From NCBI GenBank assembly GCA_023701085.1, contig JAMPXR010000031.1:1-12392 (forward strand): 12,392 nucleotides of DNA, given 5' to 3'. Below the pieces are notes generated by a model. It was not told the origin of the DNA. It saw nothing but the letters and a program-made list of their open reading frames with translations, and did not search any database. This DNA comes from Ramlibacter sp. GTDB taxonomy: Bacteria > Pseudomonadota > Gammaproteobacteria > Burkholderiales > Burkholderiaceae_C. A program made the position numbers and the translations under genes. Below are positions 5,100 to 6,331 of the stretch, in pieces (positions within the stretch are counted from its first letter, which is position 1; each line of letters begins with the position of its first letter).

Positions 5100-6062
5100 A
5101 TGCAAGCGAGCGGCAAGAAAATTGCGGTTCTGGCCACCGGCGGAACGATCGCCGGGCGCGCGGCGAGCGCGCACGACAACGTCGGCTACAGCGCCGCGCA
5201 GATGGGAGTGCGCGAACTCGTCGCGACCCTGCCGGCGCTTGCGGCACTGCCGCTGGTGTGCGAACAGGTCGCGCAGATCGACAGCAAGGACATGAGCTTC
5301 GCCGTCTGGCGCGCCCTGGCGCTGCGTTGCGCGCACTGGCTGGCCCAGGACGATGTGGGCGGCCTCGTGATCACGCACGGCACCGACACGCTGGAGGAAA
5401 CGGCTTATTTCCTCCAGGGGGTGCTGGCGCCTGCCAAGCCGGTGGTGCTGGCCTGCGCCATGCGGCCGGCGACCGCGCTCCTGCCGGACGGCCCGCAGAA
5501 CCTGCTCGACGCGATCGCCGTGGCGGGCACCGAGGGCGCGCGCGGTGTGGTAGCTGTCTGCGCCGGTTCGGTGCACGGGGCGCAGGATGTCGCCAAGCAA
5601 CACACCTATCGCCTCGACGCATTCACGTCCGGGGACGCCGGACCGATCGGCTACGTGGAGGAGGGGCGTTTGCGACTGCTGCGCGAATGGCCCTCAGCCG
5701 ACCCCGCGGCGGCCCGCCAGAAGCTGACCGAGCTGGCGGCGCGCGAGCGCTGGCCGCGCGTGGAAATCATCCTGAACCACGCGGGCGCGGGCGCGGCGAT
5801 CGTCCAGGCGCTGGTGGCGCAGGGGGTGGACGGCATCGTCGTGGCCGCCACCGGCAACGGCTCGGTGCACCACGACCTCGAGCAGGCGCTGCAGCAAGCC
5901 CGCGCGAGCGGCGTCAGGGTGCTGCGGTCCACACGCTGCCCGCAGGGCGCCGTGCTCGGCCGGCAGGACGACACCTTGCCGCATGCGGGCACGCTGTCGC
6001 CGGTCAAGGCGCGGATTGCCTTGATGCTCGAACTGCTGGACCAGCGCCGGTCCGGGACCTAG
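5100..6062 (+). CDS. L-asparaginase, type II fold, no signal peptide, 320 aa
   Basis: It hydrolyses L-asparagine (perhaps also glutamine) to aspartate and ammonia. Both active-site threonine signatures are present: ATGGTIAG with nucleophile Thr16, and ITHGTDTLEETAYF with Thr95-Asp96. The catalytic lysine is likely Lys166 in AQDVAKQHT, and AMRPATALLPDGPQN matches the family. Tyr30 and Ser62-Lys63-Asp64 stand where E. coli AnsB has its lid Tyr and Ser-Gln-Asp, so Lys replaces the substrate-binding Gln, a change I believe occurs in other proteobacterial homologues. No signal peptide precedes the first beta strand (MQASGKKIAVLAT), so the enzyme should be cytoplasmic although the sequence resembles the periplasmic class. 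No Shine-Dalgarno is seen before the ATG, but no other start fits. The TAG stop lies in the CTAG that borders the inverted-repeat element. SOS boxes lie just upstream. Confidence 0.93.
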   Translation: MQASGKKIAVLATGGTIAGRAASAHDNVGYSAAQMGVRELVATLPALAALPLVCEQVAQIDSKDMSFAVWRALALRCAHWLAQDDVGGLVITHGTDTLEETAYFLQGVLAPAKPVVLACAMRPATALLPDGPQNLLDAIAVAGTEGARGVVAVCAGSVHGAQDVAKQHTYRLDAFTSGDAGPIGYVEEGRLRLLREWPSADPAAARQKLTELAARERWPRVEIILNHAGAGAAIVQALVAQGVDGIVVAATGNGSVHHDLEQALQQARASGVRVLRSTRCPQGAVLGRQDDTLPHAGTLSPVKARIALMLELLDQRRSGT

Positions 6063-6083
6063 GGCCTGTTAACACTATTTTTG
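6059..6083 (+). repeat. left terminal inverted repeat of the element
   Basis: This 25-base arm begins CTAGGGCCTGTTAACAC and ends in a T run and G. It is the exact reverse complement of 6307-6331. After one mismatch three more bases pair (6085-6087 with 6303-6305). The first four bases may be target duplication. The asparaginase TAG stop is 6060-6062, inside this arm. Confidence 0.9.
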
Positions 6084-6091
6084 ACAGATGC

Positions 6092-6191
6092 GTTGCGATT
6101 CAAAAGGGTTCAGTGCTAGGCGCGGCGGCGCAGCCGCACTGACGTGCGGCAAGCTGCCGCAACGACGCAATGGGCACTTTTGAATCGCAAC
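6092..6191. repeat. palindromic arm A of the element
   Basis: Fifteen bases, GTTGCGATTCAAAAG (6092-6106), pair perfectly with 6177-6191. The enclosed 70 bases hold two more perfect 7-bp stems: TCAGTGC 6110-6116 with 6136-6142, and TGCGGCA 6145-6151 with 6155-6161 around a 3-base loop. It forms one arm of the proposed junction. Confidence 0.8.
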
Positions 6192-6198
6192 CCGAAGG

Positions 6199-6299
6199 GA
6201 ACATGGACAGAACCGCGCCATTCGTCGTTGCACTCCTAGCCAAGGCGTCCAGCCTTGGCGTCGTCGCGCGCCTAGATTGGCGCGGTTCTGTCCATGTTC
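6199..6299. repeat. palindromic arm B of the element
   Basis: Twenty-two bases at 6199-6220, beginning GAACATGGACAG, pair perfectly with 6278-6299. Inside, CCAAGGC (6240-6246) pairs with GCCTTGG (6252-6258) over a 5-base loop. It is the strongest internal stem of the element. Confidence 0.85.
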
Positions 6300-6306
6300 G
6301 CACTGC

Positions 6307-6331
6307 CAAAAATAGTGTTAACAGGCCCTAG
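6307..6331 (-). repeat. right terminal inverted repeat of the element
   Basis: Exact reverse complement of 6059-6083 over 25 bases. Its outer four bases are CTAG, of which 6328-6330 supply the TAG stop of adk on the minus strand. Confidence 0.9.

Follow-up and report, generated by a model that had tools for sequence, protein, structure and literature searches.

What is the gene-less piece of DNA on which two converging genes end in a Ramlibacter genome, and what keeps its inverted repeats paired? The window analyzed here is a stretch of 12,392 nucleotides from an incomplete genome (3.1 Mb, 543 contigs, 81% complete). Within it, an asparaginase frame (5100-6062; TIGR00520 match with E 5e-78, a score below the cut-off of TIGR00520) and adk, the adenylate kinase gene (6328-6984, opposite strand; NF001379 match above cut-off), converge on a gene-less intergenic piece of 273 bases (6059-6331) that sits on both of their stop codons, starting inside the asparaginase stop TAG (6060-6062) and ending inside the adk stop, which reads CTA at 6328-6330. 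An earlier sequence-only reading had described this piece as three perfect inverted pairs that might fold as a three-way junction, and had suggested a MITE or a structured DNA or RNA element.

Anatomy and fold of the element

The three inverted pairs of that reading were recovered to the base at the coordinates it gave. P1 (6059-6087/6303-6331) extends over 29 nt and is 97% complementary, its first 25 nt being perfect; P4 (6199-6223/6275-6299) covers 25 nt at 96%, with 22 perfect; and P2 (6092-6116/6167-6191) covers 25 nt at 84%, with 15 perfect. The recommended fold check gave a result far beyond chance, as the RNA fold of 6040-6350 reached -199 kcal/mol, whereas shuffled sequences averaged -118 (sd 5; z = -16), and 0 of 100 shuffles were as good. 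The three-way junction, however, had to be revised, because an extra hairpin, CC-GAA-GG at 6192-6198, lies between the arms with both base pairs invariant in 34 of 34 aligned copies; added to the three near-perfect nested inverted repeats, this fourth helix (P3) makes the junction four-way. No transposase piece was found inside the element, as had been stated. Arm 1 and arm 2 share one loop motif in inverted orientation (CTAGGCGCG...GCAACGACG in the alignment; the arm motif is written as CNAGGCGC...GCAACGNCG), so that the whole element scores on both strands. Its features in the window are as follows.

6062..6328, plus strand: whole element without the duplicated TA (GGGCC...GGCCC), 267 bp; from the copy alignment and empty sites at other loci
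6060..6061, no strand: probable left TA target copy, TAG at 6060-6062 being the stop of the asparaginase frame; duplication judged from other copies
6329..6330, no strand: probable right TA target copy, CTA at 6328-6330 being the adk stop (minus-strand TAG)
6061..6091, plus strand: P1 outer stem, 5' side; inverted repeat and covariation
6300..6329, plus strand: P1 outer stem, 3' side; inverted repeat and covariation
6092..6191, plus strand: arm 1 (P2) hairpin; inverted repeat, fold and copy alignment
6116..6124, plus strand: arm-1 loop motif CTAGGCGCG (consensus CNAGGCGC); mean column identity 86% in 164 copies
6159..6168, plus strand: arm-1 loop motif, opposite side, GCAACGACGC; 87% over 6159-6167 in 164 copies
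6192..6198, plus strand: P3, small hairpin CC-GAA-GG, the fourth junction helix; pairs invariant in 34 of 34 copies
6199..6299, plus strand: arm 2 (P4) hairpin, the diverged inverted counterpart of arm 1
6223..6234, plus strand: arm-2 loop motif CGTCGTTGCACT, which includes the reverse complement of the arm-1 motif, GCAACGACG; 89% over 6223-6233 in 164 copies, some of them picked by a pattern in this motif
6267..6278, plus strand: arm-2 loop motif CGCGCCTAGATT, which includes the reverse complement of CTAGGCGCG; 90% over 6267-6277 in 164 copies, some of them picked by the arm-2 pattern

Compensatory change in the stems

The absence of drift in the main stems, noted in the sequence-only reading, holds for the window copy; across copies it does not, as the stems change greatly, with compensation. 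Standard pairs make up 96.7% of cells in the alignment of 34 full copies (A1), and both partners have changed in 72 of 94 pairs. Double-changed cells number 436, compared with 106 in shuffles, none of the 500 shuffles reaching the observed count. Sliding the partners by 1-3 columns, with relatedness kept, lowered the pairing to 34-41%. Change in the stems is compensatory and the structure is conserved, which supports the suggestion that pairing is under selection.

The larger set comprised 164 copies (166 minus 2 duplicates), those added to the 34 of A1 being kept only at 255-300 nt or 255-310 nt. Mean identity in this set was 62%, with a minimum of 34%, and 79 of 94 pairs occurred as at least two Watson-Crick types, each in at least three copies. 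Stem identity was 54% in the inner outer-stem, 59% in the arm-2 stem and 68% in the arm-1 stem. The arm loops were 86-90% conserved, some of the copies having been picked by the arm-2 pattern, and the terminal 10 bp of P1 (the GGGCCTGTT region) were 91% conserved; yet in distant copies (L346, L348, L356 and L047) the outer stem, with this terminal repeat, is altered on both sides together. The length was 268-274 nt in 157 of the 164 copies, a set pre-filtered at 255-310 nt. The stem letters thus differ while the fold stays, so that what is maintained seems to be the shape.

Family size and host range

A DNA search found relatives in 12 of 61 genomes, all of the same genus. A covariance model built from the 34 full copies extended this range considerably. 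Within the same family it matched 175 of 299 genomes, from 98 of 141 genera; at the level of the phylum it matched 72 of 398, from 43 of 213 genera, and these include genomes outside the class. Among the matches listed, model-confirmed copies occurred in Acidovorax, Variovorax, Polaromonas, Hydrogenophaga, Roseateles, Piscinibacter, Ideonella and Lampropedia, and further in Thiohalobacter thiocyanaticus, Exilibacterium and Silanimonas, three taxa outside the Burkholderiales. Presence is patchy, even within one genus. Complete genomes carried 25 (G067), 33 (G208) and 13 (G317) sites, 71 together, some of them partial. Named loci were chosen via the arm-2 pattern, and searches of more than 40 genomes scored only the best 4-6 candidates per genome, so that part of the arm-2 conservation reflects how the copies were picked, and copy numbers in those searches are lower bounds.

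The Ramlibacter genome of the window, incomplete as it is, holds a second full copy (two in all), 98% identical to the first. It also contains five end fragments or mini-palindromes of 37-45 bp (C126:3407, C536:5172, C140:15931, C541:1776 and C477:2655), which are likely remnants of further insertions. With copies in its own genome, family and phylum, the element is the dispersed multi-copy repeat that had been proposed, and its many copies in many genomes run counter to the opposite outcome, a single locus with vertical descent. Four contigs of another genome, G008 (C6, C11, C27 and C34), begin at or within the element, which therefore seems to break assemblies. Carriage by phages was considered and rejected, since a DNA search gave no match in phages and one strict pattern gave none in viral contigs.

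Insertion and target site

Thirty Ramlibacter adk loci were read, one of which is the window. The element was not seen directly after adk in the other 29, of which one (L278) is cut by a contig end about 40 bases past adk; in at least 16, no more than 100 bases separate adk from the end of the asparaginase match. These congener loci support a lineage-specific insertion. The flanks of nine other Ramlibacter insertions were joined and searched in 59 genomes, yielding element-free orthologues that span the junction at two of the nine joined sites (19 and 7), and these two sites were read base by base. At L059, two of seven orthologues (L366 and L378) have TTAC in place of the TTA/GGGCC...GGCCC/TAC of the occupied site (slashes mark the ends of the element), the other five differ there, and the empty-site relatives are only 81-84% identical in that region. 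At L039, two of the 12 orthologues shown keep CTAG where the occupied site reads CTA/.../TAG, which fits TA and CTAG alike. These few sites support a probable 2-bp duplication of TA, with L059 as the one that discriminates and L039 as consistent.

Junctions were counted in 142 copies, after 12 of the 164 without flanks and 10 more without a clear junction were left aside. Base counts favored Y-TA-R, and TA still stood on both sides in only 47 of the 142, with junctions set by a simple script. The flanks, for which CTAG had been expected, are mostly YTA/.../TAR, with the TA duplication read from empty sites, and such empty sites point to a mobile element. The element is dispersed and was gained in particular lineages; it is a mobile, non-autonomous element that most likely inserts at TA. 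Of two Variovorax paradoxus plasmids, one (L074:3000-3269) has the full element and the other (L365), at the corresponding position, a remnant without arms, and this supposed empty site was rejected.

Stop codons, gene ends and strand

Frames of at least 100 codons end exactly at the junction in 70 of the 142 copies (43 left, 40 right, 13 both). When frames of at least 60 codons were counted, 90 of 158 junction TAs ended one, compared with 71 of 242 TAR trinucleotides taken from these flanks as controls. The first letter of the element is G, which turns the TA of an interrupted stop codon into TAG, and the gene still ends. The abundance of stop-codon sites may reflect a preference of the enzyme or the survival of harmless insertions, which these data do not tell apart. 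In 44 of the 142 copies both sides have a gene 3' end no farther than 78 bp away, in 70 one side has, and in 28 no gene end is near.

The orientation of the element showed no preference relative to the gene ending at it (43 left, 40 right) and no bias relative to replication at 71 sites in three genomes (p = 0.8, with base 1 assumed to be near the origin). The latter result gives no help to a single-strand mechanism, and insertion tied to the replication strand was rejected. In 76 well-paired columns, G-U exceeded A-C mismatches by 224 to 107 (share, 0.68; 95% interval, 0.63-0.73), next to 369 other mismatches, the strand scored for G-U having been chosen with a model that rewards G-U. This modest 2:1 excess suggests that selection may be directed at a single strand more than at the two together, and purely strand-symmetric DNA was rejected with the same caveat about the choice of strand.

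Decay products and related classes

Nine remnants of 51-55 bp in G125 (L399-L406) consist of the outer stem alone and have eight different tips, so that most look like independent deletions of the center, and remnants of 87, 144 and 179 bp have lost one arm or more. Two enlarged copies, L396:1241-1590 (350 bp) and L397:1044-1406 (363 bp), carry extra hairpins in one arm tip, as if palindromes had been inserted. A second class of 165 bp (L146, L163, L197, L199, L204, L208, L209, L210 and L213) has the same arm core within an unrelated outer stem between TCA repeats, as read in L146, L163 and L209. Lone arm-2 hairpins in G007 (L044, L063 and L064) begin in a TGA resembling the stop of the preceding gene.

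Searches for a mobilizing enzyme

A full-length IS with the same ends, proposed as the confirming sign of a MITE, was absent at IS-like distance: end patterns applied to 41, 10 and 30 genomes gave no IS-sized inward pair, only pairs of 51 to 363 bp. The 30-genome search listed 150 of its 163 matches, and the other 13, in G104 and G191, were listed in the 10-genome set. PF01797 genes were found in 11 of 12 carriers and 9 of 12 non-carriers, a non-carrier being a genome without a match in the 299-genome family scan, which used stricter filters. None of the 30 PF01797 loci fetched from carriers and non-carriers had the element within about 1.5 kb. A link to RAYT was rejected, as PF01797 is not commoner in carriers to a notable degree and its loci are not flanked by the element. 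A link to IS630 was likewise rejected, since DDE_3 is absent from the complete many-copy carriers G067, G208 and G317 (11 of 28 genomes searched have one) and the element does not flank the 28 DDE_3 loci, near which only chance-level matches occurred (best, 12.2 bits; E 0.034). An Rfam RNA family was rejected as well, with nothing at the curated threshold in 5900-6500 and only chance-level MIR1437 matches (25.7 and 17.4 bits versus 168).

The element resembles a MITE in being shorter than 600 bp and gene-less, in its terminal inverted repeats, dispersal and lineage-specific insertions, and in the apparent TA duplication; it differs in showing no autonomous partner with the same TIRs in the 41, 10 and 30 genomes. 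It shares with IS630/Tc1 elements the TA duplication (few sites) but not a DDE_3 in its carriers. The original MITE assignment stands as regards dispersal, TA duplication and the presence of TIRs, and falls short for want of a full-length IS in the genomes searched, while the compensated change of the outer stem in distant copies strains the plain label.

Explanations for the conserved shape

We consider it somewhat probable that this is a non-autonomous, TA-inserting element of about 270 bp whose shape is kept by a putative trans-acting enzyme. It would insert into a TA dinucleotide, often that of a stop codon, with duplication of the TA, and because it carries no gene it would have to be mobilized in trans. 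The paired ends would provide the outer stem and each half an imperfect hairpin, by which a single strand could fold into a four-way junction. An enzyme or host partner might then recognize this fold, reading not the stem letters but the fixed GGGCCTG at the ends and the fixed loops of the arms, so that copies losing their pairing would stop spreading, and stop codons might be common sites because insertion there is harmless. A more specific proposal, which we offer tentatively as possible though doubtful, is an element class recognized by shape, in which a putative trans-acting recombinase or transposase binds the one-strand four-way junction via the arm loops; all stem letters, and eventually the outer stem too, would then be free to drift. 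Against the main reading speak the terminal 10 bp of P1, conserved like a conventional TIR that is recognized by its letters, and the G-U excess, which is just 2:1 with 369 other mismatches and a strand-choosing model that rewards G-U. The same holds for the searches above, in which no mobilizing enzyme came to light, and for the TA duplication, with its one discriminating site.

Quasi-palindrome correction during replication makes compensatory changes without selection on the fold. An ordinary MITE, moved by its ends alone via a TIR-recognizing transposase that is extinct or resides elsewhere, could keep its stems by such palindrome-templated repair. The conserved GGGCCTGTT region would be the sequence-read TIR of such an element, the stems can evidently be rewritten, as in the distant copies, and palindrome-type deletions are common, including the nine 51-55 bp remnants and the arm-less plasmid remnant of Variovorax. 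The TA duplication is also that of RUP, which has an IS630 partner according to a section of PMC2229807. Correction should, however, heal internal loops, whereas the motifs in the loops remain unpaired and almost unchanged, in other classes too. The nearly constant total length, the same arm core with other ends and another target in the 165 bp class (three read) and the lack of an IS-sized partner in the 41, 10 and 30 genomes also argue against this account, and we regard it as rather unlikely.

A structured RNA element, transcribed with the upstream gene as its 3' end, terminator or stability element and spreading as a side effect, would suit the position at gene ends (44 copies on both sides and 70 on one side of 142, within 78 bp), the 2:1 preponderance of G-U over A-C and the very stable fold. 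In addition, the possibly related BRE lies in the bprJ1/bprJ2 transcript region, as part of PMC3110155 describes. This account does not explain why orientation toward the ending gene shows no preference (43 left, 40 right), why the element scores on both strands, why 28 of 142 copies have no nearby gene end by the test used, why no Rfam family reaches threshold or why presence is patchy even in one genus, and it appears quite unlikely to us. The strand and orientation counts suggest a folded single strand of DNA in occasional use, with neutral decay in between, more readily than an RNA acting in each host transcript. REPINs consist of two inverted hairpin units, and two such units also form the present element, so that a RAYT (Y1, HUH) transposase acting on the hairpins as a single-stranded substrate deserves mention. 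The chemistry of these enzymes does not suit a TA duplication, and PF01797 is about as common without the element (9/12) as with it (11/12). REP palindromes show signs of selection for complementary mutations, but RAYT genes are reported as always REP-flanked (both from sections of PMC2817692), and 0 of 30 PF01797 loci have the element within about 1.5 kb; a REPIN-like origin is highly improbable.

If the class is indeed recognized by its shape, the 272 bp TA class, the 165 bp TCA class and the lone TGA arms would be different users of one arm module, spread through much of Pseudomonadota. If the fold is what is read, the recognition signal could be worked out by comparison alone from hundreds of natural variants, and it would become testable how a partnerless, structured, non-autonomous repeat moves and how insertion at stop codons keeps it harmless.

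Comparison with known systems

The element is unusual in that its shape outlives its sequence, in its wide range and in having no visible partner; otherwise, it is a MITE-like repeat. The literature searched, largely outside subscription journals, held no name or description of it, the nearest being BRE, and nothing alike occurred in the part of PMC4853749 that deals with Thiomargarita MITEs. As described in sections of PMC2229807, the Correia/NEMIS and RUP MITEs are also short, gene-less and present in many intergenic copies, and RUP also inserts at TA; they measure about 105-155 bp, and RUP has an IS630 partner with similar TIRs, whereas here the stems vary freely and no partner was found in the genomes searched. 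The CIR elements of Caulobacter and relatives, covered in the same sections, resemble ours in their two long inverted repeats, two linker-joined arms and sharing between genera, but they are about 110 bp long, with a GANTC motif at the loop and no stem closing the two ends. REP, REPIN and BIME sequences with RAYT share inverted palindrome pairs, complementary mutations, extragenic position and high copy number with the element, whereas REPs are about 20-40 nt with GTAG-type heads and RAYT genes are REP-flanked (from parts of PMC2817692), a link not seen here. For IS1272, too, inverted-repeat structures matter at the site of action; IS1272 replaces an inverted repeat, which serves as its target and is not duplicated (PMC5678879, in part), in contrast to the TA that is apparently duplicated here.

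The Beta-proteobacterial repeat element, BRE (Hot et al. 2011, PMC3110155), is presented in the section concerned as a GC-rich, dispersed, mobile-looking repeat of about 90 bp from Bordetella, Polaromonas, Delftia, Acidovorax and Rhodoferax. It is like the element in its mobile appearance, its overlapping hosts, its orientation not being tied to the fork and its length near the size of one arm. It differs in being described as a unit of 75-91 bp, tandem at some loci, and that section gives no outer stem, four-way fold, TA target, stop-codon site or compensatory change. As the size and hosts of BRE match one arm, the arm may already have a name, and BRE may be the arm of this element, likened by size and hosts rather than by letters. 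The covariance model annotates a large nameless repeat in Comamonadaceae-type genomes and could offer a frame in which BRE itself finds a place.
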